Shown in pieces: positions 5,491-21,389 of a stretch of 22,552 bases of DNA; the first letter of the stretch is position 1; the number at the start of each line of letters is the position of its first letter. Source of the stretch: a virus. Location of the stretch: positions 1-22,552 of IMG/VR virus record IMGVR_UViG_3300036770_005438; one strand, given 5' to 3'. The notes below the pieces were generated by a model. That model did no database searches and was not told the DNA's origin. It saw only the letters and a program-made list of their open reading frames with translations. The position numbers were made by a program, and so were the translations under genes.

Positions 5491-5500
5491 AATTCCATAA

Positions 5501-5524
5501 TTAGCGAATCAAGGATTTAGCGAA
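5501..5524 (+). promoter_or_regulatory. Octamer pair (TTAGCGAA x2, 16-bp phase) over the gene E ribosome binding site
   Basis: TTAGCGAA occurs at 5501-5508 and 5517-5524, exactly 16 bp apart, and the second copy abuts the ATG of gene E. The same octamer and phasing occur on the three accessory promoters. The Shine-Dalgarno-like AAGGA lies between the copies. A protein bound here could affect expression of gene E or block transcription, or the site may serve as an extra centromere-like site. Confidence 0.6.
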
Positions 5525-5776
5525 ATGACTACCCCCGTCACCCTGAAGCGCCCGCTCAAGCGCGGCGAAACCGAAATCACCGAAGTGACCTTCCGCGAGC
5601 CTGGCGCCGGCGAGCTGCGCGGCCTGGATATGTTCGACGTGATCCGCATGAACGTCACCGCGCACCGTACCCTGGTGCCGCGCATTTCCAACATCACCGC
5701 CAATGAATTCGACGTGCTGTCGCCGAAAGACCTGATGGCGGTGCAAACGGAGGTGGTCGCTTTTTTCATGGAGTGA
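5525..5776 (+). CDS. E: Tail assembly chaperone, unshifted product (P2 gpE-like)
   Basis: An 83-residue protein with the position, size and sequence style of P2 gpE: TTPVTLKRPLKRGETEITEV, FREPGAGELRGLDM, then SPKDLMAVQTEVVAFFME. It lies between the tube and tape-measure genes, where long-tailed phages encode the overlapping pair of tail assembly chaperones that coat the tape measure. It ends at a TGA just after the run CTTTTTTC, where a -1 frameshift would add the E' extension. The start ATG 5525 directly follows an octamer operator. Confidence 0.88.
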   Translation: MTTPVTLKRPLKRGETEITEVTFREPGAGELRGLDMFDVIRMNVTAHRTLVPRISNITANEFDVLSPKDLMAVQTEVVAFFME

Positions 5777-5974: not shown

Positions 5975-8512
5975 ATGTCGACCAACTCTATGCGGCTTAA
6001 CCTGATCATGGGCCTGGTGGACAAGATCACCGGCCCGATTCAGAAGGTCACCAGCGAAACCACGAAGATGGGCGACAAGATCAAGTCGACCCAAACCGAG
6101 CTGGCCAAGCTCGGCAGCACGTCCAAGGACATCGAGCACTTCAAGGCGTTGCAGGAGCGGGGCGCCAAGACCGGCGACGCCCTGGCCGCCGCCCAGGCCA
6201 AGGCCAAGGCCCTGGGTCAGCAACTGGCAGCCACTGCCGAGCCGTCGCGCAAGATGACGGCCGAGTTTGAGAAGGCGACGGCCCAGGTCAAGCGCTTGCA
6301 GGCGCAGCAGCAGGCCGAGCGCCTGGAGCTGCAACAGACCGGGGCGAAGCTGAAAGAAGCGGGGGTCAATACCGGCAAGCTGGGCGAGGCTACGCGCCGA
6401 ATCGAGGTGCAGACCAAGCGCTATAACGAGCAGTTGGCCAAGGAACAAAAGGCCCTTGCCGGCGTCGCCGAGCAACAGAAGCGCGTCGCCGACATCAAGA
6501 AGCGCAACAGCGAAATGCGGATGTCTGCCACCGCTGACGCGGTCGGCGTGGGCGCCACGGTGTTCGGTATCAAGAAGCTGGTCGACGCCTATGGCGACGT
6601 GGCGGCCGCCCAGGGCGAAATCCGGTCGCTGAAGATCGACGACCCGGGTATCGAGGCGATCACCGCCAAGGCCAAGGCGTTCTCTGATCAGTGGGCGGGA
6701 ACCACTACGGGCGACTTTATCCGCGCGTCCTACGACATCAAGTCGGGTATTGCCAGCCTGGGCGACGCGGCGGTCGGCGAGTTCACCCGCATCGCGGCCC
6801 TGACGGGCGCCGCGACCAAGGCCAGCACGGCGCAAATGACCAACCTGTTCGCGTCGGGCTATGGCATCTATCGCAAGCAGTTCGAAGCGTTCGGCGCCTC
6901 GACGGTCGAGGGCTGGCAGAAGCTGAGCGCCGAGGAACGCGACATCAAGTTCGGCGAATACTTTTCGGCGGGCATCGCGACCAGCGTGCGGGCGTTCAAG
7001 ACCAACGGCCAGGAAATGAGCAGCGCCATTTCTGCCCTGGGCGCGACCGCCACGTCGGCCAACGTGCCGTTTGCTGAACAGTTGTCGATCCTGGGTCACC
7101 TGCAAGCGACGATGTCGGGCAGCGAGGCGGCGACCAAGTACCGGGCGTTTCTGAACGCGGCGTCGAAGGCCGGCGATGCTCTGAGCCTGACCTTTCTGGA
7201 CGCTAACGACCAGTTGCGCTCGATGCCCGAGATTCTGGAAGAGCTGCGCGGCAAGTACGGCGACACCCTCGACGCGGTCGAAGCGGCCGAGCTGCAAAAG
7301 GCGTTCGGCACCGAAGAGGCGGTCGCACTGATCAAGCTGCTATATCCAGAGGTTGACGCGCTCAAGGCCAGCATGGGCAGCCTTGACGACAGCCTGCGCG
7401 GCGGTATGACGACCACGGAAGAGATGGCCCGCGCGATGCAGCAAGGCCCGGTCGCCGTGTTCGGCCTGTTCGGCCAGCGCCTGGGCAACCTGTCGGCCGC
7501 TGTCGGCAAGCTGTTCGCCCCGGCCATGGTGTTCGCCGCCGACAGCCTTGGGCAGTTGGCGGGGTTCGTCACGATGCTGACCGAGCGCTTCCCGTTCCTG
7601 TCGACCGTGGTGGCCTATGCCATCGTCGGGCTGATCGCGCTGAAGGTGGCCACCATCGGCGGCCGCTTCGCCTTCGCCTTTATGTCCGACGCGATGCTGT
7701 TGGCCAGCAAGTCGCTGGCGTTCTTCACGCTGACCAACCTGCGCGCACAAGCGGCGTTACTGGTAACGCGCGTTCGCGCCATGGGCGCAGCCGCCGGGGT
7801 GTTCCTGATGGGCGCCGCGTCGCGGGCCTTTGCTGTGGGCGCTGCGCTGATGACGGCCGCGCAGTGGGCGCTAAACGCCGCGATGATGGCCAACCCTATC
7901 GGGCTGATCATCCTGGGCATCATGGCGCTGATTGCCGTGGTCGCCCTGGTGGTGCGCTATTGGGAACCGCTGTCGACGTTCTTTAGCGGCCTGTGGGATG
8001 GGATCAAGGCGGCCTTTGTCATGGGCTGGGAGGTTATCAAGTCCCTGCTGATGTTCAGCCCGCTCGGCCTGGTGATTCAGGCATGGGAGCCGCTGACGGG
8101 GTTCTTTTCGACGCTGTGGGAAGGCATCAAAAATTCCTGTGGCGCGGCTATCGACTGGATCGCCGAGAAGGTCATGGGGCCTATCGAGAAGATCAAGAAC
8201 TTCGCCGGCGGGATCTTCGGCAGCGATTCGCCGGCGGCCGCTGCTGCGCCTGCTGGTGGCGGGGCTGCCGGCGCCGAGCCTGGCACGGTGGGTGCCGGTG
8301 GTGTGCAGGCTGCCGCCGTGGGTGGCGTGGCGTCGCCTGCTGGCCGCACTGCTGCGCCGCAGCAGGTCAACCAGTACGGCGGAATCACCGTACAGGCTGC
8401 CCCGGGGATGTCTGAAGAGCAGGTCGCGAAGAAGGTGCGCGCCGAGCTGGATGCACGCGACCGCCAGGCCGCGCGCGGGCAGCGTGGCCGCCTGGGCGAC
8501 AACGCCGACTAG
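5975..8512 (+). CDS. T: Tail tape measure protein (P2 gpT-like)
   Basis: At 845 residues this is the longest gene and fits the length of P2-type tape measures. It opens with LNLIMGLVDKITGPIQKVTS, typical of the family, and continues as Ala/Lys/Gln-rich coiled coil to about residue 180. A globular TP901-like core follows (FIRASYDIKSGIASLGDAA, LFASGYGIYRKQFEAFG, QEMSSAISALGATATSANV). Two hydrophobic zones follow: VVAYAIVGLIALKVATIGG, and the NPIGLIILGIMALIAVVALV segment. WEPL repeats and an Ala/Gly/Pro-rich linker near residues 755-790 end the protein. The tape measure sets tail length and helps DNA pass the membrane. A 445-codon open frame on the opposite strand is a codon-bias shadow. Confidence 0.93.
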   Translation: MSTNSMRLNLIMGLVDKITGPIQKVTSETTKMGDKIKSTQTELAKLGSTSKDIEHFKALQERGAKTGDALAAAQAKAKALGQQLAATAEPSRKMTAEFEKATAQVKRLQAQQQAERLELQQTGAKLKEAGVNTGKLGEATRRIEVQTKRYNEQLAKEQKALAGVAEQQKRVADIKKRNSEMRMSATADAVGVGATVFGIKKLVDAYGDVAAAQGEIRSLKIDDPGIEAITAKAKAFSDQWAGTTTGDFIRASYDIKSGIASLGDAAVGEFTRIAALTGAATKASTAQMTNLFASGYGIYRKQFEAFGASTVEGWQKLSAEERDIKFGEYFSAGIATSVRAFKTNGQEMSSAISALGATATSANVPFAEQLSILGHLQATMSGSEAATKYRAFLNAASKAGDALSLTFLDANDQLRSMPEILEELRGKYGDTLDAVEAAELQKAFGTEEAVALIKLLYPEVDALKASMGSLDDSLRGGMTTTEEMARAMQQGPVAVFGLFGQRLGNLSAAVGKLFAPAMVFAADSLGQLAGFVTMLTERFPFLSTVVAYAIVGLIALKVATIGGRFAFAFMSDAMLLASKSLAFFTLTNLRAQAALLVTRVRAMGAAAGVFLMGAASRAFAVGAALMTAAQWALNAAMMANPIGLIILGIMALIAVVALVVRYWEPLSTFFSGLWDGIKAAFVMGWEVIKSLLMFSPLGLVIQAWEPLTGFFSTLWEGIKNSCGAAIDWIAEKVMGPIEKIKNFAGGIFGSDSPAAAAAPAGGGAAGAEPGTVGAGGVQAAAVGGVASPAGRTAAPQQVNQYGGITVQAAPGMSEEQVAKKVRAELDARDRQAARGQRGRLGDNAD

Positions 8513-8516
8513 CAAT

Positions 8517-8532
8517 TTAGCGAAATAGCTAA
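8517..8532 (+). promoter_or_regulatory. Octamer pair TTAGCGAA-ATAGCTAA after the tape measure
   Basis: The 16 bases TTAGCGAAATAGCTAA differ by one base from the TTAGCGAATTAGCTAA sites flanking the parA promoter. The site starts 4 bp after the stop of T and runs into the stem of the following terminator. No promoter is obvious next to it, so it is either an extra partition/binding site or a roadblock element. Confidence 0.6.
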
Positions 8533-8553
8533 GCCGCCCCCGGGCGGCTTTTT
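8531..8553 (+). terminator. Intrinsic terminator after the tape measure
   Basis: AAGCCGCC / GGCGGCTT stem followed by TTT, between T and U. Its left arm overlaps the octamer site. Confidence 0.75.
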
Positions 8554-8565
8554 CGTGGGGGCTAC

Positions 8566-8994
8566 ATGGCAGAAACGATGATGGCGCTGGGCGACTTCCG
8601 CTTCAGCGTGCGAACAGCCGAATACCAGAGCCTGGCGACCTCGATGTCGTGGCGCTGGGCGAAAAAAGACCGCTATGGCCGCAAGCCTGGAAAGCAGTTC
8701 CACGGCCCGGACAGCACGACCAAGACCCTGGAAATCACCATACACCCGGACAGCCGCGCCGACGTGGTGCTGTTCGACCGCCTGCGCGCCATGGGTGACG
8801 CCGGCGAGCCGCTGCGCCTGGTGGCAGGCGGCACGGCCCTTGTCGGGGGCGTGCTGAAGCAATCCGGCGCCGACCTGGGGCTGTGGGTGATCGACAGCCT
8901 GAGCGTGGCCGACGAGCACTTCATGCAGGACGGCACGCCCCTTGTGCGCAAGGGGTCGCTTGCCATTTCCGAATACGGCGAAGACGAGGACTAG
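8566..8994 (+). CDS. U: Tail completion protein U (P2 gpU-like)
   Basis: A 142-residue protein. MMALGDFRFSVRTAEYQSL at the start, the WRWAKKDRYGRKP segment and GKQFHGPDSTTKTLEITI are typical of P2 gpU. Later parts, GDAGEPLRLVAGG and GLWVIDSLSVADEHFMQDG, also match that family. gpU acts in tail completion or termination. The gene follows T and is followed 2 bp later by X, the P2 order T-U-X-D. Start ATG 8566 was chosen because the family begins directly with the MMALGDF motif. Confidence 0.93.
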   Translation: MAETMMALGDFRFSVRTAEYQSLATSMSWRWAKKDRYGRKPGKQFHGPDSTTKTLEITIHPDSRADVVLFDRLRAMGDAGEPLRLVAGGTALVGGVLKQSGADLGLWVIDSLSVADEHFMQDGTPLVRKGSLAISEYGEDED

Positions 8995-11803: not shown

Positions 11804-12530
11804 TAGCCCGTGGCCGCGCCCTGCCGCGCGGCGCCATCTTGGCCCCGTCCGGGGCATTTCCGGCCCATTCCAGCGTCACCCGCCACCCATTCCAGCGCCT
11901 CGATCGTTCTTGCCAGGGCGCGCCTGTGGTTCTGCCTGAAATTAAGTGTTTTGGCATAAATTTAGGTGTTCTTAGAATTTTTTAAGTAGCCCCTGTGCTT
12001 CTGCCTTTTCTCTGAAAGAGAATCTTTAGGTCTACCCCGCCAGCGGGATAGCCCCTGTTTTAATGCCTCGGCAAGCCGAGTGGCTTTCTATAGGCAGCCG
12101 TGCCGGCTGCAAAGTTGCCGCCCGCACTTCCTGGCTACGCCAGGGCGGGACGTGGCCGCGCGGCCGCACCTGCGCGCAGTCCTGAACCCGGCCCGTTCCA
12201 GTTGCTGCACGCCGAGGAAGTCCGCGCCGTACCTGTGCCGCCGTGCGCCGGCGTTTCGCGCCTTCACGCGCCTGGCCTGCGGCCGCGCCGCTACGCGTCG
12301 CCAGCGAACAGGTCAGGGGGTGGGCCTTGCCTCTTTCGTCGATCCTGGCCGCCTCTGCGCTCGCCTGGGGCGATAAAGGCGGAAAGCCACACCACGGCCG
12401 CCCGGAAGGGCGGTGCGCACTGCTGGCCTTCCTGGGCGGCTTTCTGGATGGCTGGCCCGGCCTGGCCGGCTGTCGACGCCTTGTCGCTGGCGTTGCCGCC
12501 TGCTGCCGGCGGTTTCTGTGCGCCTCAATA
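11804..12530. other. Non-coding region downstream of repA, candidate replication origin
   Basis: About 730 bp without a convincing gene. From 11939 to 12070 it is distinctly AT-rich, in contrast to the rest of the replicon. This part carries a direct repeat TTTAGGT (11961-11967 and 12025-12031), an inverted repeat TTCTCT-GAA-AGAGAA (12008-12022) and a stem CTCGG-CAAG-CCGAG near 12065. In IncFII-type plasmids the origin lies downstream of repA, so this is the natural candidate; I found no clear DnaA box. From 12080 to 12530 the DNA is very GC-rich. Three overlapping frames are open there, but they are Arg/Pro/Ala-rich and resemble nothing, so I reject them as genes. Confidence 0.5.
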
Positions 12531-12616
12531 ATTAGCTATTGCGCGAATTAGCGAAGCCTGTAGAATGCGACGCACGGCCAGGCGATCCCGCCCAGGCCAA
12601 GCCCGGAGCCTTACCG
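12531..12616 (+). promoter_or_regulatory. Accessory promoter-operator-leader cassette, copy 1
   Basis: Octamers TTAGCTAT (12532-12539) and TTAGCGAA (12548-12555) lie 16 bp apart and overlap a promoter: -35 TTGCGC (12539-12544), 16-bp spacer, -10 TAGAAT (12561-12566). The leader contains GGCC...GGCC and ends with CGGAG, the ribosome binding site. The cassette measures 86 bp to the ATG, as in copies 2 and 3. Confidence 0.78.
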
Positions 12617-12871
12617 ATGACCAAGAAAAAGCAAATCGCCGCCCTGACCCTGAATCTGCAAACCGCCGAAGCCGCGTTCGCCGAGGCCGACCGCTTGATG
12701 GATTCCTGGGCGCCTGAAGATGGCGCCGCCACCGGCGCGGAAATCGAAGCCCGCTATGATGCCGCCCGCGCCCAGGTGACCGCCTGCCGCGACGCCCTGC
12801 GCGCCGCGCAGTTTGCCGGCCGATACGTCTGCCCGCATTCTGCCGCCCTGGTTTCGGCCAACATCGACTAA
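12617..12871 (+). CDS. Accessory protein of cassette 1 (84 aa)
   Basis: ATG 12617 follows CGGAG at 8 bp and matches the start position in the two other cassettes. The 84 residues begin TKKKQIAALTLNLQTAEAAF and continue as Ala-rich helices: a probable coiled coil to about residue 40, then a second helix with ARYDAARAQVTACRDALRAA. The tail FAGRYVCPHSAALV has one Cys-His pair. I do not recognise the family. It shares an almost identical promoter with the other cassette genes, so it is likely co-regulated with them by whatever binds the TTAGC octamers. The next gene, after a hairpin, is probably co-transcribed. Confidence 0.65.
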   Translation: MTKKKQIAALTLNLQTAEAAFAEADRLMDSWAPEDGAATGAEIEARYDAARAQVTACRDALRAAQFAGRYVCPHSAALVSANID

Positions 12872-12878
12872 TCGGCCC

Positions 12879-12902
12879 GCCGCCGGCATCGAGGCCGGCG
12901 GC
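12879..12902 (+). terminator. Intergenic hairpin (attenuator-like)
   Basis: Perfect 9-bp stem GCCGCCGGC / GCCGGCGGC, loop ATCGAG, without a T-run, between the cassette 1 gene and the next gene. It could stabilise the upstream mRNA or reduce read-through. Confidence 0.4.
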
Positions 12903-12921
12903 CTGCCTTGGAGGTTCCGCA

Positions 12922-13320
12922 ATGTTTTCTTTCGTTCGTGACGGGTCACGCCTTGAAGGTGCGCCCGAGGATTTGCCCGAAGCCTGCCGCCAGGCCCTGC
13001 GCCTGCGCGCGCAGTTGCTGGAGGATGGCGAGCCGGTCGACTGCCTGACGGTGCTGGGCCTGGATCGCCCCGGGCTGTTCCTGGCGCCTCGCCCTGAAGG
13101 CTTGCGGCCGACCGCTGAAGAGGTGCGCGCCCTGGCTTCGCTGGCGGGGCTGAGTGGTTCCCAGGTCGCGCGCCTGGTCGGCAGTACGCCGCGCAAGTTC
13201 CGCGCCTGGGTCGGTGGGGAGGATGGCATGCCCTGGGCTGCCTGGCATGTGCTGGCCATCTATGTCGGGCTGGCCGAGCCGGTACGCTTTCCGCTGCCTG
13301 CTGCGATGCTTGCTAATTAG
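12922..13320 (+). CDS. Putative helix-turn-helix DNA-binding protein (132 aa)
   Basis: ATG 12922 has a strong ribosome binding site (TTGGAGGTTCCGCA). Residues 65-115 read as a helix-turn-helix of the XRE type: EEVRALASLAGLSGSQVARL, then STPRKFRAWVGGEDGMP and AAWHVLAIYVGL. This is the recurrent pattern of small phage and plasmid regulators in which the recognition helix is followed by W.xG...MP.xxW. The first 60 residues are a separate, Leu-rich part. It may regulate the cassettes or be an accessory protein; no operator can be assigned to it. The TAG stop (13318-13320) lies inside the first octamer of cassette 2, so the gene abuts the next promoter. Confidence 0.62.
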   Translation: MFSFVRDGSRLEGAPEDLPEACRQALRLRAQLLEDGEPVDCLTVLGLDRPGLFLAPRPEGLRPTAEEVRALASLAGLSGSQVARLVGSTPRKFRAWVGGEDGMPWAAWHVLAIYVGLAEPVRFPLPAAMLAN

Positions 13321-13401
13321 CTATTGCGCGAATTAGCGAAGCGTGTAGAATGCGACGCACGGCCAGGCAATTCCGCCCAGGCCAGCCCCGGAGCATTCCC
13401 G
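13316..13401 (+). promoter_or_regulatory. Accessory promoter-operator-leader cassette, copy 2
   Basis: TTAGCTAT (13317-13324) and TTAGCGAA (13333-13340), -35 TTGCGC (13324-13329) and -10 TAGAAT (13346-13351), with a leader nearly identical to that of copy 3. The first octamer contains the stop codon of the upstream gene. Confidence 0.8.
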
Positions 13402-13737
13402 ATGATCAACGTACTGACCGCCCTGAATATCGCACCCTACGCCGCCGCCAATGATCGCGAGTTCGGCAGTTCCTCGACCCGCCTGAAGATCGCCGACTTC
13501 CGCGCCCTGGTCGATTCCCTGAACTGGACGCGCGACTGGCTGACTGGCGGCACTCGCGAAGAGTTCAAGCGCCAGGACATCCCGGGCCAGTTGGGCGCCG
13601 CCATCGCCCGCCTTGAAGGTGCCTTGCCGCTGGTTCCGGCGCGCTACGCCGCCGACCTTGAGTCGGCCCGCTCGGCCATCGAGTGCGCCCAGCGCACTAT
13701 CGAGCGCTGGCACGCTGCCCCGGCGGTCACCCGCTGA
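13402..13737 (+). CDS. Accessory protein of cassette 2 (111 aa)
   Basis: A 111-residue protein with start ATG 13402 after CGGAG. The sequence is INVLTALNIAPYAAANDREF, then STRLKIADFRALVDSLNWTR, then two predicted helices (LGAAIARLEGALPLVPARYA and ADLESARSAIECAQRTIERW). It has no membrane segment, no signal peptide and a single Cys. I do not recognise it. It has its own promoter cassette and its own terminator, making it a self-contained expression unit, typical of plasmid accessory or anti-host genes, but no function can be read from the sequence. Confidence 0.65.
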   Translation: MINVLTALNIAPYAAANDREFGSSSTRLKIADFRALVDSLNWTRDWLTGGTREEFKRQDIPGQLGAAIARLEGALPLVPARYAADLESARSAIECAQRTIERWHAAPAVTR

Positions 13738-13752
13738 ATTCCCATCCCGCCG

Positions 13753-13780
13753 AAGGCCGCCAAGCGCGGCCTTTTTATTT
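13753..13780 (+). terminator. Intrinsic terminator of cassette 2
   Basis: AAGGCCGC / GCGGCCTT stem with loop CAAGC, followed by TTTTTATTT, 16 bp after the stop. It cleanly ends the cassette 2 transcript before cassette 3. Confidence 0.82.
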
Positions 13781-13794
13781 GTGCTAATAGGCTA

Positions 13795-13880
13795 ATTAGC
13801 TATTGCGCGAATTAGCGAAGCGTGTAGAATGCGACGCACGGCCAGGCAATTCCGCCCAGGCCGGAACCGGAGTAGACCCG
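13795..13880 (+). promoter_or_regulatory. Accessory promoter-operator-leader cassette, copy 3
   Basis: TTAGCTAT (13796-13803) and TTAGCGAA (13812-13819), -35 TTGCGC (13803-13808) and -10 TAGAAT (13825-13830). From 13795 to about 13861 it matches copy 2 base for base, diverging only just before the ribosome binding site. Confidence 0.8.
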
Positions 13881-14210
13881 ATGACCGCACAAGCCAAGAT
13901 TCTGACCCCCGCCCAGCAAGTCGCCGAAACCATCCTTGCCCAGCTCGGCGCCCGCCGCTTCCTGGCCATGACTGGCGCCCGTGATCTGGTGGCCACTGCG
14001 AAGGGACTGCAATTCAAGTTGCCGGCCAACTTCGCCACCGGCGGCGTGAACATGGTTCGCGTCGAGCTGGAGCCGAGCGACACCTATAGCGTGATCGTCG
14101 GCCGCTTCCGCGCCCTGGAGTTCAAAGAGAAGGGCCGCGAAGAACTGGTCTATTGCGACCAACTGCAAGCCGCTTTCACCCGCCTGACTGGCCTCGATAC
14201 CCACCTGTAA
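13881..14210 (+). CDS. Accessory protein of cassette 3, conserved plasmid/phage-type small protein (109 aa)
   Basis: A 109-residue protein starting at ATG 13881. The motif RRFLAMTGARDLVATAKGLQ followed by LQFKLPAN, VNMVRVELEPSDTYSVIVGR and a C-terminal LVYCDQLQAAFTRLTGL is a family I have seen on bacterial mobile elements: an AMTGAK-type start, beta strands, DTY, then a helix beginning Y.D.L...F...TGL. Its function is not known to me. The fold should be a small alpha-beta domain. It is controlled by cassette 3 and separated from the following gene by a stable hairpin. Confidence 0.7.
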   Translation: MTAQAKILTPAQQVAETILAQLGARRFLAMTGARDLVATAKGLQFKLPANFATGGVNMVRVELEPSDTYSVIVGRFRALEFKEKGREELVYCDQLQAAFTRLTGLDTHL

Positions 14211-14254: not shown

Positions 14255-15430
14255 ATGGCGAAGAAAAAAGCCAAGCCCCTGGAGCGCGAAGAGCGGCCCG
14301 AGTTCCTGGCCATGCTGGCCAGCCTGCCGGATGACATCGAGGCGATGCACGCCCGCGCCGGCCGCCTGCGCGCGATCTATAACGACGCGATCATCGCCGG
14401 CGATGAAGACGCCCGCGCGGCGGCCACCCTGGAGCATGACGCCATTGTCTACAAGCTGAACGGCGGCACGTTCTTCGGCTGCCGTGGCGACGACACACGC
14501 CCCGGGCGCGTGCTCGATGCCCAGCATGTGGCCAAGCCTGGCCAGGTGCCGCATTGGGGGCAGGATGGCGAATTTCTGGTCGAGGTCGACGGGGTGCGCG
14601 TGCTGGTCAAATACGAATGCCAGGGGCTGCGCTCGGCGCCGGGCTTCGACGCGACGGCGGTAGACTTCGACAAGCCGTTTATCAGCCCGACCGGATACCA
14701 AAGCGTCTACCTGACCGTTACCGATCACATGGGCCGCACGCTTGAACAGGCGGTGCGCGCCGAGATTGCCGCGCAGATTGCAGCCGAGGGGCTGAAGTCG
14801 ATCACGAAAGAGGATTTGCGGTGGATCGAGAAGCGCCCGGCCTGGCTGGTCGACGTGCTGGCAGGCGTGACGCGTGACGGACAACTGGCCATGTTTGGCG
14901 ACCAGCCCGAGCCGAAAAAGCCCTTGAGCGGTGCCGAGCGGCAGAAGCGCCGCCGCGACAAGCTGCGTGAGCTGAAGGAAAAAGAGGGGCTAAAGCCGGT
15001 CATGCTGACCGATTTGGAGCGCCTCATGCTATTCGCTGCGCTTGACCTTGAGAACGCCATAAAGCCGCATGACGAACAGTCCGCGCCGTTGCACCTGGCG
15101 TTGCTTCAGAAGATTTACCCCGGGGCGAGCTGGACGGATGAAGCCCAGCGTATTGCGGCGGGCATTTTGAAAAGTGACGCGAATCAGCAGGCCGCCGACC
15201 GCTGGAGGATCGAGGCCGACCGCCAGCGAGCCGAGGCCAGCCGCTGGGCGAAGCGCGCCCAGGAAGCCGAAAGCACCTTGCGCAAGTCGCCCGACCTGGC
15301 GGCCCGTGTGGCCTGGCTTGAGCAGGAAAACGCCCAGGTAATCGAAGAGCGCGGCCGGGCGTTCCGTGCTGTCGAGGTACTAACGCAGCGCCTGCGCGAC
15401 GCGGGCCTGTCGACGGACTATCGGGGGTGA
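14255..15430 (+). CDS. Plasmid accessory protein of unknown function (391 aa)
   Basis: ATG 14255 follows CTGGAG; longer frames that start within the preceding gene are rejected. The N-terminus (AKKKAKPLEREERPEFLAML, then a helical part) leads to an alpha-beta domain with GGTFFGCRGDD, VEVDGVRVLVKYECQG and DKPFISPTGYQSVY, about residues 65-165. A basic stretch, LSGAERQKRRRDKLRELKEK, lies in the middle, and the last 100 residues are a predicted coiled coil (DRWRIEADRQRAEASRWAKR ... VAWLEQENAQVIEERG). The FISPTGYQS motif occurs in plasmid-borne proteins of unknown role, so I call it plasmid accessory. The basic helix could contact DNA. It heads the run of small overlapping genes, the first of which starts at GTG 15427 over its stop. 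Confidence 0.68.
   Translation: MAKKKAKPLEREERPEFLAMLASLPDDIEAMHARAGRLRAIYNDAIIAGDEDARAAATLEHDAIVYKLNGGTFFGCRGDDTRPGRVLDAQHVAKPGQVPHWGQDGEFLVEVDGVRVLVKYECQGLRSAPGFDATAVDFDKPFISPTGYQSVYLTVTDHMGRTLEQAVRAEIAAQIAAEGLKSITKEDLRWIEKRPAWLVDVLAGVTRDGQLAMFGDQPEPKKPLSGAERQKRRRDKLRELKEKEGLKPVMLTDLERLMLFAALDLENAIKPHDEQSAPLHLALLQKIYPGASWTDEAQRIAAGILKSDANQQAADRWRIEADRQRAEASRWAKRAQEAESTLRKSPDLAARVAWLEQENAQVIEERGRAFRAVEVLTQRLRDAGLSTDYRG
14865..14878 (-). repeat. 14-bp dispersed motif, copy 2 (inverted)
   Basis: CGTGACGCGTGACG, the exact reverse complement of CGTCACGCGTCACG at 5477 and 20912. This copy is inside a coding sequence. Confidence 0.6.
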
Positions 15431-18800: not shown

Positions 18801-19079
18801 TTAGTTGCTGGGTTCCCAGCCTTTTTTGCTCATGTAGTCCGCAAGCGCTTCCTTGAGTGCATCCACCTGGGCGACTTCATGCGTCGCGCAGAAGAGTCGG
18901 AAATTCTTGCGAAACTCTGGCGACACCTTGAAGCCCAGGTCGACCAACTTGCTGTCGCTGCCGGTGCTGGTGTTGTTGCCAATGGCAGGCGTGTCGGCGG
19001 CAGACTTCGGCGGCTCGCCCTTGCCGCGCGGCGGCTTCGGGGTCTTGATCTGCGGGGCGGTGCTGGTCTTGTTGGTCAT
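18801..19079 (-). CDS. Ribbon-helix-helix protein, likely centromere-binding partner of ParA (92 aa)
   Basis: The first 44 residues are disordered and basic (TNKTSTAPQIKTPKPPRGKG). They are followed by LVDLGFKVSPEFRKNF, a strand and first helix, and by RLFCATHEVAQVDALKEALA, the second helix, about residues 45-85. This is the ribbon-helix-helix plan of ParG/omega-like centromere-binding proteins, whose flexible tails touch the ParA ATPase. It is encoded just downstream of parA and across a cluster of TTAGC octamers, as expected of a type Ib partition pair. It probably binds the octamers, represses the operon and loads the centromere. Alternatively it is only a small regulator. No direct sequence match to a named family member is claimed. 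Confidence 0.72.
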   Translation of the reverse strand: MTNKTSTAPQIKTPKPPRGKGEPPKSAADTPAIGNNTSTGSDSKLVDLGFKVSPEFRKNFRLFCATHEVAQVDALKEALADYMSKKGWEPSN

Positions 19080-19107
19080 GCGGGCATTCCTGCGGTGAAT
19101 TCGTGTA

Positions 19108-19140
19108 TTAGCATAATAGCGATTTAGCTAAATCGCTAAT
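19108..19140 (-). promoter_or_regulatory. TTAGC octamer cluster between parA and the RHH gene (candidate centromere/operator)
   Basis: Reading on the + strand there are four octamers in 8-bp phase: TTAGCATA (19108), ATAGCGAT (19116), TTAGCTAA (19124), then inverted TTAGCGAT (19132). Bases 19117-19138 form a perfect 22-bp palindrome. On the minus strand a possible -10 (TAATAC) for the RHH gene lies directly downstream, so the site can act as operator and partition site. Confidence 0.65.
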
Positions 19141-19143
19141 CTT

Positions 19144-19782
19144 TTAAATCAGTTCTTCGAATTTGGCGATGGCCGACTGTACGACCTGCATGGCCTGTTC
19201 GCGTGGCGACTTGTACGGCGTTTCGATCAGCGATTGGCCGGCGTCCAGCGCGCGGCTATAGGCGGGCTTGTGCTGGATGGAGCCTTCTAGGGTGGCAAAG
19301 CGGGTCTTGCCCAGGTACTCGCGCGCGGCCTGAACCTCGGCGGTGCTGGTGGCTTTGCACAGGGCGAAGACGATGCGGCGCGGCTCGATGCCGTGTTTGT
19401 CGGCCAGGGTGTTCGCCAGGGTGACGGTCGGTTCTAGGTCGTCGACCGACAGGCCGGTCGGCAGGATCATCAAGTCGCATGCCTTGGCGATTTCCACCGT
19501 CTCGGTGCTGGCGTGCGGGGCGCCGTCGAAGATCAACAAGTCAGCGTCGCCGGCCTTGCTGATGGCGGTGGCCACGTTGCCGAACATCTGTACGGGCACG
19601 TCTGGCGTGATGCCGTTGCGCAGTCGGCGCTGTTGCCAGGCGGTGCAGGTGCCTTGCTTGGTATCGAGGTCGGCGATTTTTACCGACCAGTCATTGGTCG
19701 CGAACGCCGTGCCGAGTGCGCGGGCGAGGGTGGATTTCCAGACGCCGCCCTTCTGCGAGCCGAAACCGATCTTGTAACCCAT
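19144..19782 (-). CDS. parA: ParA-family partition ATPase (212 aa)
   Basis: A 212-residue ParA of the small type Ib kind with no N-terminal DNA-binding domain. The deviant Walker A motif is residues 11-18, KGGVWKST, where Trp replaces the usual Gly; both lysines (K11 and K16) are present. D40 in KIADLDTKQG is the Walker A' aspartate, and D86 in LLIFDGAPH is the Walker B position. Typical partition features LMILPTGLSVDDLEPTV and FALCKATST follow. Such ATPases move plasmids with a small partner, here the RHH protein 64 bp downstream. ATG 19782 follows AAGGAG. Two octamer pairs flank the promoter, so it is likely autoregulated. Confidence 0.9.
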   Translation of the reverse strand: MGYKIGFGSQKGGVWKSTLARALGTAFATNDWSVKIADLDTKQGTCTAWQQRRLRNGITPDVPVQMFGNVATAISKAGDADLLIFDGAPHASTETVEIAKACDLMILPTGLSVDDLEPTVTLANTLADKHGIEPRRIVFALCKATSTAEVQAAREYLGKTRFATLEGSIQHKPAYSRALDAGQSLIETPYKSPREQAMQVVQSAIAKFEELI

Positions 19783-19804
19783 GGGCTTAACTCCTTTGCG
19801 AGAA

Positions 19805-19887
19805 TTAGCGAATTAGCTAACTTTGCGCAGAGTATAAGCGCGCGTTCGCGCAGTGCAAGCTAATTATTGAATTAGCGAATTAGCTAA
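19805..19887 (-). promoter_or_regulatory. parA promoter flanked by two TTAGCGAATTAGCTAA operators
   Basis: On the minus strand -35 TTGCAC, a 16-bp spacer and -10 TATACT lie between two identical 16-bp sites, TTAGCGAATTAGCTAA at 19805-19820 and 19872-19887. Each holds two octamers in 8-bp phase and is almost palindromic. The spacing between sites is 67 bp, allowing cooperative binding across the promoter. The distal site contains the stop codon of the upstream gene, so read-through can add to parA expression. Confidence 0.75.
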
Positions 19888-20332
19888 AGATGACGAAGCC
19901 GCCGCGCGCAGCGATGGCGGTGCTGCTGGAGGTGCTGCGGTGGCCGCCGCGACTGCTGCCGGAGCCGGCGCGGGTAAGGCGGGTGAGGCTGGAGGGTGCG
20001 CGCGAGCGGCTGGGGGTGCGATTGCGCACGGCATCGAAGTCGCTTTCGGCGACGCATGCCAGGGCGAGCAGTACGCATAACGCGCGCGGGAACAGTACGC
20101 CGAGGGTAAAGCCCCGGGCGATCATGTGGGGGTGGGTCTTGGCGCCGAGCTTGGCTTTGATGCTGGCTTCTATGTAGCGAATCGCGACCTTGTCGGTTTC
20201 GATGGCGGCCGCGATGGTGTTGGGGTTCTCGCCATCGGCGAGGCCGACCAAGACACGCAATTCGCGCCAGGTGAGCGCTTGGCCTGGGACGCCGACAACG
20301 TCTTCGCCCTGGATTTCCATTTCTGCCTGCAT
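19880..20332 (-). CDS. LuxR-type helix-turn-helix protein with hydrophobic segment (150 aa)
   Basis: The minus-strand ATG at 20332 has ribosome binding site AAGGAAG; a longer frame continues upstream but overlaps the gene before it. Residues 19-80 form a LuxR C-terminal HTH: LTWRELRVLVGLADGENPNT, then IAAAIETDKVAIRYIEASIK and AKLGAKTHPHMIARGFTLGV. This is followed by one short hydrophobic stretch, FPRALCVLLALACVAES. The rest is an Arg/Ser/Gly-rich tail. No response-regulator receiver domain precedes it. The combination of HTH plus one membrane-like segment occurs in small regulators of Pseudomonas mobile elements. It lies directly upstream of parA in the same direction and may control the operon, or bind the octamers. 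Confidence 0.7.
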   Translation of the reverse strand: MQAEMEIQGEDVVGVPGQALTWRELRVLVGLADGENPNTIAAAIETDKVAIRYIEASIKAKLGAKTHPHMIARGFTLGVLFPRALCVLLALACVAESDFDAVRNRTPSRSRAPSSLTRLTRAGSGSSRGGHRSTSSSTAIAARGGFVIFS

Positions 20333-20358
20333 GTCTGTCTTCCTTGGTCGGTGTTGAT

Positions 20359-20640: not shown

Positions 20641-20670
20641 GGGGGCGATACTACCTTGTATTCATGTTAA

Positions 20671-20687
20671 TTACACTTAAAGTGTAA
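20671..20687 (-). promoter_or_regulatory. Repressor-type operator in front of the partition operon
   Basis: TTACACTTAAAGTGTAA is a 17-bp perfect inverted repeat around one central base, with core ACAC-N5-GTGT. The same core at the same spacing stands in the repressor/Cro intergenic region at 21437. On the minus strand it overlaps TTTACA, a plausible -35. Confidence 0.6.
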
Positions 20688-20700
20688 ATTGAGTGTGCAG

Positions 20701-20729: not shown

Positions 20730-21389
20730 TTAGCGTATGTGGGTTATCAGCTTGACGCGGCCGAGGATTCGCAGCTTGGCCAGTTCGCCCGGGGTCATGA
20801 CCTGGTCGGGGTAGTGGTCGCGGGCCTCGGCCTGAATGCTATAGGTGCCGTCGAGCTGTTGCTTGATCCAGCGCAACCAAGGCCGGTCGCCGACCATGAT
20901 GGCGAATATGTCGTCACGCGTCACGTTGGTGACGCTTAGGTCGAGCATGACCGGGTCGCCTTGTTCGATGACGCCGCCCATGCTGTCGTCGGGCGCGCTC
21001 ATGAGCAGCATCCGGCCCTTGTCGAGCTTGATTTCATCGAGCCAGGTTATGCGCGGCGCATAGAAGTCTTCGCCCAGGTCGGCGGTGCCGCTGGCGGTCG
21101 GGATGGTGGAAAGGGCGGGTACGGTGAAGCGCCCGGCCTCGGGCGCGGTGCCGTCGTCGTCGCTAATGGCGCCCAGGTAGGCCGGCGGTTTGCCGAAGAG
21201 CGCGCCGAGGGCGATCAGCATTTCGAGCGGTGGCGTATTGATCGCCAGTTCCCAGTTGCCGTACCGCGACGGGATGATCTTTTGGCCGCTGGTCGTCGAT
21301 AGGTACGCCGCCGTCTCGTTGAACGTCCAGCCTTTCGCTGTGCGGCACGACTTCAGGCGCGCACCGATCTTCTTGCGGATGTCAGACAT
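20730..21389 (-). CDS. Phage repressor, XRE HTH plus S24-type C-terminal domain (219 aa)
   Basis: CI/LexA-like repressor. The N-terminus (IRKKIGARLKSCRTAKGWTF, then ETAAYLSTTSGQKIIPSRYG and NWELAINTPPLEMLIALGAL) is an XRE HTH. The second half has the peptidase S24 fold: SAPDDSMGGVIEQGDPVMLD with nucleophile S136, then IFAIMVGDRPWLRWIKQ. In LexA and UmuD the catalytic Lys is 37 residues after the Ser; here residue 173 is Arg, with Lys only at 176. Self-cleavage may be impaired or need another alignment. Ala85-Gly86 (PEAGRF) is a possible cleavage site. It probably maintains the lysogenic state and represses the divergent gene. The start is ATG 21389, well supplied with a ribosome binding site. 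Confidence 0.86.
   Translation of the reverse strand: MSDIRKKIGARLKSCRTAKGWTFNETAAYLSTTSGQKIIPSRYGNWELAINTPPLEMLIALGALFGKPPAYLGAISDDDGTAPEAGRFTVPALSTIPTASGTADLGEDFYAPRITWLDEIKLDKGRMLLMSAPDDSMGGVIEQGDPVMLDLSVTNVTRDDIFAIMVGDRPWLRWIKQQLDGTYSIQAEARDHYPDQVMTPGELAKLRILGRVKLITHIR
20912..20925 (+). repeat. 14-bp dispersed motif, copy 3
   Basis: CGTCACGCGTCACG, identical to 5477-5490. It lies inside the repressor gene and is followed by a further GTTGGTGACG. Confidence 0.6.

Follow-up and report, generated by a model that had tools for sequence, protein, structure and literature searches.

Overall organization of the element

The window analysed here, that is, the whole 22.6-kb stretch of DNA held in an IMG/VR virus record, carries phage structural genes and partition genes together. 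Its P2-like tail genes encode a tail sheath, GpU, a tail assembly chaperone, and a tape measure protein, and the window also encodes ParA, an S24/CI-like repressor (positions 20730-21389), and a LuxR-like protein (19880-20335). Most closely related to it are a 38.5-kb IMG/VR contig (L008/L050; RHH protein 98% identical) and the plasmids pHN2 of Pseudomonas sp. HN2 and pPAC1.3b of P. aeruginosa. Among these, pHN2 and the 38.5-kb contig are the closest complete relatives, and the trait of the pHN2 group, phage structural and partition genes on a circular element, is found here as well. Because the P2-like tail genes, ParA, and the S24 protein occur together with phage-plasmid relatives, the window is a fragment of a phage-plasmid and not of a conjugative plasmid; as judged from its sequence, it is part of a Pseudomonas phage-plasmid of ~38.5 kb.

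In the pHN2 record (L006/L010, NZ_CP085886), which is 82 kb long, the same proteins are encoded at two places (for example, WP_227974554.1 at 1-426 and 41246-41671), which suggests that an element of ~41 kb is present as a head-to-tail dimer or has been duplicated by an assembly artefact. Near the S24 repressor gene of the window (20660-20690) lies a palindrome, TTTACACTTAAAGTGTAAA, which differs from the octamer described below, recurs in the related locus L011 (6120-6140, 6869-6889, and 6932-6952), and is probably the operator of the S24 repressor itself.

Three 86-bp cassettes

The preliminary description of this DNA had singled out three near-identical 86-bp units, and these are borne out to the base: the distance from ATTAGCTATTGCGCG to the ATG is exactly 86 bp in each. 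The units, cassette 1 (12531-12616), cassette 2 (13316-13401), and cassette 3 (13795-13880), lie on the plus strand and are 91-93% identical to each other over the 86 bp. When compared over 96 nt, the in-register copies span 12529-12624, 13314-13409, and 13793-13888, with copies 2 and 3 being 92% and 85% identical to copy 1. Each cassette is composed of 8-bp repeats, ATTAGC[GT]A, at a spacing of 16 bp, a putative TTGCGC-N16-TAGAAT promoter, a predicted 5'-end hairpin, and a ribosome-binding site; the -35-like TTGCGC, the -10 TAGAAT, a GGCC...GGCC segment, and GGAG are found at fixed offsets in all three. In cassette 1, the octamers are at 12531-12538 and 12547-12554, the -35-like element at 12539-12544, the -10 at 12561-12566, the leader hairpin at 12576-12598, and GGAG at 12605-12608. 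The corresponding positions are 13316-13323, 13332-13339, 13324-13329, 13346-13351, 13361-13383, and 13390-13393 in cassette 2, and 13795-13802, 13811-13818, 13803-13808, 13825-13830, 13840-13862, and 13869-13872 in cassette 3.

Between the two well-matched octamers lies a third, the 3' half of which is kept and the 5' half altered to TTGCGC, as expected if the same octamer must double as the -35 element. A strict sigma-70 scan calls no promoter at the cassettes, since the -35 matches at just 3/6 positions; the promoter assignment is based on the spacing and on conservation in relatives. The octamer, counted as ATTAGCKA, occurs 13 times in the window as compared with 0.38 expected, a number reached in 0/100 shuffles. 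Outside the cassettes, copies are found on either side of parA and ahead of the RHH gene and of two tail genes.

Genes behind the cassettes

Cassette 1 precedes two genes instead of the single one implied earlier: orf84 (12617-12871, plus strand), which encodes a small protein whose sole relative found is in the near-identical contig L050, and, ~50 bp further on, a gene for a 132-residue HTH protein (12922-13320, plus strand; HTH_31 match below the curated cut-off). The stop codon of the HTH gene is overlapped by cassette 2. In pHN2, L027, L030, and L034, the HTH gene stands directly behind the operator. The genes had been said to share no sequence, which holds for their proteins (best blastp E value of 0.22) but not entirely for their DNA, as orf84 and the HTH gene have a 35-nt GC-rich stretch in common (E = 6e-6).

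Cassette 2 is followed by gene 3 (13402-13737, plus strand; 111 residues), relatives of which are found behind the same cassette in L008, L027, L030, and L035. The search for plasmid relatives of gene 3 returned none, and its two weak viral matches (L048 and L049) were judged to be due to chance. A terminator-like hairpin (13752-13774, plus strand) ends the gene-3 unit ahead of cassette 3. Behind cassette 3 lie gene 4 (13881-14210, plus strand; 109 residues) and, downstream of it, a gene for a KlcB-like protein of 391 residues (14255-15430, plus strand), the first ~150 residues of which are 40-45% identical to IncP-1 KlcB. Relatives of gene 4 are present in 885 plasmid records, mostly from E. 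coli and Salmonella, of which 747 are predicted to be conjugative. The model of the gene 4 product has a pLDDT of 65.7, and its best PDB match (E = 0.09) is not meaningful. An anti-host or defence role, as suggested initially, finds no support from PADLOC, which gave no match for the five cassette genes.

The partition locus and its RHH protein

ParA (19144-19782, minus strand) is a 212-residue protein that matches CbiA above the cut-off, ParA_partition below the cut-off, and a PHROG ParA-like family, and is a small Walker-type ParA lacking an N-terminal DNA-binding domain. Directly behind parA lies the gene for a 92-residue RHH protein (18801-19079, minus strand), an order that is conserved in the collected loci, and we propose that this protein is both centromere-binding protein and repressor. 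Its profile matches SvtR/56B (E = 6e-4), and its Pfam match falls below the cut-off. The predicted structure is of low confidence (pLDDT of 63.9) and comprises two C-terminal helices and a low-confidence N terminus; the nearest folds are RHH proteins, at E values above 1. The N-terminal tail contains a conserved motif, GEPPxSAADT..VGNNT, which is a candidate ParA-contact region.

Tandem arrays of the cassette octamer flank the parA promoter and also precede the RHH gene. On the minus strand, these arrays are located upstream of the RHH gene (19107-19140), between the parA -10 element and start codon (19804-19819), and upstream of the parA promoter (19863-19886), the last being the likely centromere/operator. 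The 3' end of the LuxR-like gene extends into one of the par arrays. The locus thus displays the traits of a type Ib-like system: a small ParA, an RHH protein with a flexible N terminus encoded behind parA, and short tandem repeats at the par promoter. ParA and the RHH protein are always co-inherited, and therefore the share of ParA in what follows is inseparable from that of the RHH protein.

The cassette as a module in related elements

A search for the unit in related elements, which had been put forward as a check, shows that it recurs before at least seven gene families. The ~20 cassettes collected share the octamer, TTGNGC, a 16-bp spacer, and a TAGAAT-like -10, with a leader hairpin in most, and stand before orf84, gene 3, gene 4, the HTH gene, and genes for proteins of 74, 68, and 67 residues. 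The cassette core is found in eight IMG/VR contigs; seven are RHH-positive, and the eighth is a 4.9-kb fragment. The leader, conserved in the three cassettes of the window, is not the fixed part of the unit that it had appeared to be: it is separable, and the same operator occurs without it at the HTH genes of L034 and pHN2 and at the klcB-like genes of L011 and L032. Hairpins are predicted for each of the twenty leaders examined, with a mean fold z-score of just -1.2; covariation among these twenty leaders is not above controls, and the cassette leader has no Rfam match.

The unit had also been viewed as a control element duplicated to recruit genes into one regulon. The reuse of one control unit within a single element-encoded regulon stands, but the unit is the parA-rhh operator itself, used across the family of phage-plasmids and found before integrase and tail genes as well, and a fresh duplication is less likely, since relatives have cassettes at the same genes. 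In L027, L030, and L035, gene 3 and gene 4 each already have a cassette, which makes homogenisation within lineages likelier than fresh duplication. The gene-4 cassette of the window is matched at 77-80% by those of pHN2, L030, and L034, as compared with 91-93% among the cassettes of the window. From these sequence comparisons, concerted evolution is the more likely source of the likeness of cassettes within a genome. In pHN2 (L006, 19911-20030), the gene-3 position is occupied by an operator whose -10 has decayed and by a terminator behind it, with the gene itself missing.

That the three units are a recent repeat without any regulatory role is scarcely credible despite their 91-93% identity within the window, as several other elements keep the unit, with a diverged leader, ahead of the same genes, and the operator is retained even where the genes and leaders are different ones.

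The octamer follows the RHH protein across 35 loci

Thirty-five loci with relatives of the RHH protein, some of them near-duplicates, were gathered from plasmids, phages, genomes, and IMG/VR; a profile search of genome contigs with the RHH alignment gave just two plasmid loci. In the collected loci, parA directly precedes rhh and tandem 8-bp repeats are near. Par arrays are detected at the scan threshold in 34/35 loci and are visible by eye in the 35th. When each locus is scanned with its own octamer, arrays outside par are found in 31/35 (shuffles, 0.0 per locus), the loci without them being the plain P. syringae-group plasmids L012, L021, and L022 and the short contig L031. Octamer arrays are absent from five elements that lack the RHH gene.

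The octamer differs among groups: TTAGC[GT]AA in the Pseudomonas type, TTAACGAA in the Edwardsiella/Vibrio type, TAACGC in the Halomonas type, and a GAATTC-based repeat in L028 and L031. The putative DNA-contacting strand of the RHH protein, with contact positions that we take to correspond to those of Arc, varies in parallel, with D-x-G/N-x-K accompanying TTAGC, P-x-N-x-K accompanying TTAAC, and P-x-N-x-R accompanying TAACGC. There are exceptions to this rule, in that L020, L028, and L031 have D-x-N-x-K yet contain mixed or other repeats. In a cross-motif control, the 21 Pseudomonas-type loci contain 113 arrays of the AGC motif and 0-2 of each of eight other motifs, and the PxNxR loci contain 30 AACGC arrays and 0 of other motifs; the PxNxK loci, which are more AT-rich in these regions, contain a few control-motif arrays too. 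The earlier suggestion that the RHH protein is a regulator of the cassettes is thus supported at the level of sequence, in that the octamer occurs with the RHH family and changes with it.

The genes found within ~100 bp behind arrays encode integrase (13 loci), gene 4 (7), gene 3 (5), RdgC-like proteins (5), HTH proteins (4), GpU (4), and KlcB-like proteins (3). In the window, an array on the plus strand (8508-8531) lies between the tape-measure and GpU genes, ahead of the GpU gene (8566-8994), and is directly followed in the 8508-8560 region by a terminator-like hairpin, AGCCGCCCCCGGGCGGCTTTTT; similar arrays precede GpU in L011, L013, and L035. A second plus-strand array (5500-5523) surrounds the ribosome-binding site of the gene for the tail assembly chaperone (5525-5776), where positions 5500-5527 read ATTAGCGA ATCAAGGA TTTAGCGA AATG and the Shine-Dalgarno sequence lies inside the middle octamer. 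The tail-gene arrays are not at clear promoters. In related phage contigs (L037-L042), TAACGC-type arrays are seen 26-28 bp before RdgC-like genes. The Halomonas plasmid pZM3H1 (L015, 21226-21716) likewise has an octamer array ahead of a toxin gene of the RelE/ParE type, and by analogy with what has been reported for pSM19035, the toxin-antitoxin operon of pZM3H1 may be under par control.

Natural exchanges of the partition module

The phage-plasmid pPL-38ph retains the LuxR-like protein (60% identity), the S24 protein (52%), the integrase (62%), and the KlcB-like protein (41%), with a ParA and an RHH protein that are unrelated to those of the window. It contains no octamer arrays. Instead, GATATC/GTATC repeats are found upstream of its parA, its RHH gene, and its klcB-like gene. 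The P. aeruginosa PA59 plasmid displays this same pattern with a third type of repeat, AATTCATAATTAT. When regions upstream of parA are compared with those upstream of the cassette or klcB-like genes, 6-30 window pairs match at 16/20 or better within an element and 0 between elements, with at most 1 in shuffles. Within-element matching of this kind indicates that the operator of an accessory gene follows the resident partition module. In the region examined of pA506, which has another ParA, such sharing of repeats was not found. As the swaps occurred in two elements with unrelated ParA and RHH proteins, they argue against the LuxR-like and S24 proteins and toward the partition protein as the regulator.

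Proposed mechanism and alternatives

We propose, with a probability of roughly three in four, that the 86-bp units act as modules of operator, promoter, and leader under the control of the partition system of the phage-plasmid itself. On the strength of the sequence comparisons, the RHH protein very probably binds the cassettes, and it probably represses them. In this proposal, the RHH protein would serve as ParB, the protein that binds the centromere, in a type Ib-like system of a small ParA plus an RHH protein, and its dimers would bind neighbouring octamers side by side. At parA and rhh, about four contiguous octamers would provide both centromere and autoregulation. Each cassette has two good octamers and, between them, a third that appears to have been altered into the -35 element (TTGCGC), such that bound RHH protein would cover the -35 and the spacer and block RNA polymerase. 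Given about four contiguous octamers at par and two good ones plus a compromise in the cassettes, the latter are proposed to be operators and not centromeres, the short array presumably being too small to act as a centromere. The RHH protein would repress the cassettes in an established lysogen; upon entry into a cell lacking it, as in infection, or upon its dilution, the cassettes would fire until it accumulates. Both the repression in the established state and the burst are modelled on ArdK and RP4, and we give this entry-burst role an even chance. Transcription probably begins near the A in CACGGCC, which would place the 5' end of the mRNA 2-3 nt ahead of the stem-loop GGCC.GGC..GCC..GGCC. 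From its 5'-terminal position, we guess that this hairpin may stabilise the mRNA.

Could the dispersed arrays be additional centromeres (parS) that raise partition efficiency, with promoter overlap being incidental or regulation a side effect? The repeat is indeed that of the par arrays, and phage N15 has four separate centromere sites (PMC7205306), with sop being linked to late gene expression by a title cited in PMC11652158. Against this stand the middle octamer of the cassettes, altered to TTGYGC at the -35 with a fixed 16-bp spacing, and the klcB-like upstream regions, which adopt the repeats of the resident system. The arrays are also short, whereas ParA activation by omega takes at least four contiguous repeats. 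We therefore regard this explanation as unlikely.

Activation of the cassettes by the RHH protein, for example through displacement of a silencer or recruitment of RNA polymerase, appears improbable. The weak -35 resembles that of activated promoters, but the octamers lie over the -35 and the spacer and not solely upstream, which is the usual geometry of a repressor, and the known RHH-ParB and ArdK precedents repress at or over the promoter (PMC9499535, PMC9723621).

The LuxR-like or S24/CI-like protein, as an element-encoded regulator, could in principle control the cassettes, in which case the octamers around parA would be its sites, and the overlap of one par array with the 3' end of the LuxR-like gene would fit. 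This is very unlikely. pPL-38ph has both proteins yet no octamer arrays; eleven tabulated loci have octamer arrays without a LuxR-like gene, and the plain plasmids L012, L015, and L022 have parA-rhh arrays without one. For the S24 protein, the different palindrome near its gene, with its recurrence in L011, points to other sites. A LuxR-type regulator of the octamers, one of the two candidates named in the preliminary description, is accordingly ruled against by its pattern of presence and absence and by pPL-38ph.

Comparison with known systems

The octamer regulon proposed here is reminiscent of the omega/delta system of pSM19035, with a small ParA, an RHH protein, and short tandem direct or inverted repeats at par promoters. 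Omega, an RHH-ParB, binds tandem 7-bp repeats at the copS, delta, and omega promoters; a pair of repeats is enough for tight binding, whereas ParA is activated only by contiguous runs of four or more (PMC9499535). Through copS, the omega repeats control a gene outside the par pair (PMC9499535); here, par repeats also sit at other genes, which would be controlled similarly. Because the octamer, ATTAGC[GT]A with its variants, differs from the 7-bp WATCACW of omega, the present system is not filed as an omega member, and the comparison gives no sequence relation. The targets differ as well: here they are the accessory, integrase, and tail genes of phage-plasmids, and the promoter-leader cassette is modular. 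Similar to the sop system of N15, partition sites are dispersed over a temperate phage-plasmid (PMC7205306), and the array before GpU recalls the effect of the N15 partition genes on late gene expression, as reported in the title cited in PMC11652158. SopB, however, is an HTH-type ParB that uses four inverted-repeat sites, IR1-IR4, in place of an RHH protein, octamer arrays, and repeated promoter cassettes.

Direct repeats at the -35 with unrelated genes behind are shared with the ArdK (CUP-type) regulons of R388 and pKM101, in which one small regulator acts on repeated promoters with direct repeats at the -35 of unrelated entry-phase genes (PMC9723621). Unlike the RHH protein, ArdK is an HTH protein of the KorA family and not a partition protein, and the R388 repeat is TTGACA and not an octamer array. 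Among ten window proteins, family searches gave no ArdK/KorA-family match and no KorA, KorB, or KorC homologues.

Among the Kor regulators of IncP-1 plasmids, KorB is the partition protein. A likeness to Kor-controlled operons, drawn in the preliminary description, holds as an analogy: KorA, KorB, and KorC repress operons of small genes plasmid-wide, one of the regulators is a partition protein, and the regulon described here includes a KlcB relative, encoded downstream in the cassette 3 unit. The main differences are that the regulator here is an RHH protein and that the operators are tandem octamers. The IncP-1 klc/kle operons burst on entry into recipients (PMC7314908), with klcA raised 224-fold and kle genes 22-50-fold in new RP4 transconjugants.

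Implications for phage-plasmid biology

Partition proteins that act as regulators are already known from omega, KorB, and N15 sop. The features that appear to be new are the presence in phage-plasmids of a large regulon of this RHH-octamer kind, the modular cassette of promoter and leader, the extension of the regulon to integrase and tail genes, and a change of operators upon exchange of par; a search of open-licence papers returned no description of an RHH-octamer regulon in phage-plasmids. It is about an even bet that, in a broad phage-plasmid family, the RHH partition protein acts as a global switch coupling segregation to entry, integrase, and virion genes, and that upon replacement of the par module the accessory operators are rewritten to match, so that the partition protein dictates the code of the regulon.

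If true, this would constitute a molecular link between plasmid inheritance and phage life, in which a single small protein would both segregate the copies and keep entry, integration, and virion genes silent. The octamer code and the matching contact residues would allow the regulons of many uncultured phage-plasmids to be read from sequence, and the octamer variants would be ready-made specificity pairs. Looking behind par operators would, in addition, be a systematic route to early, possibly host-takeover, genes.
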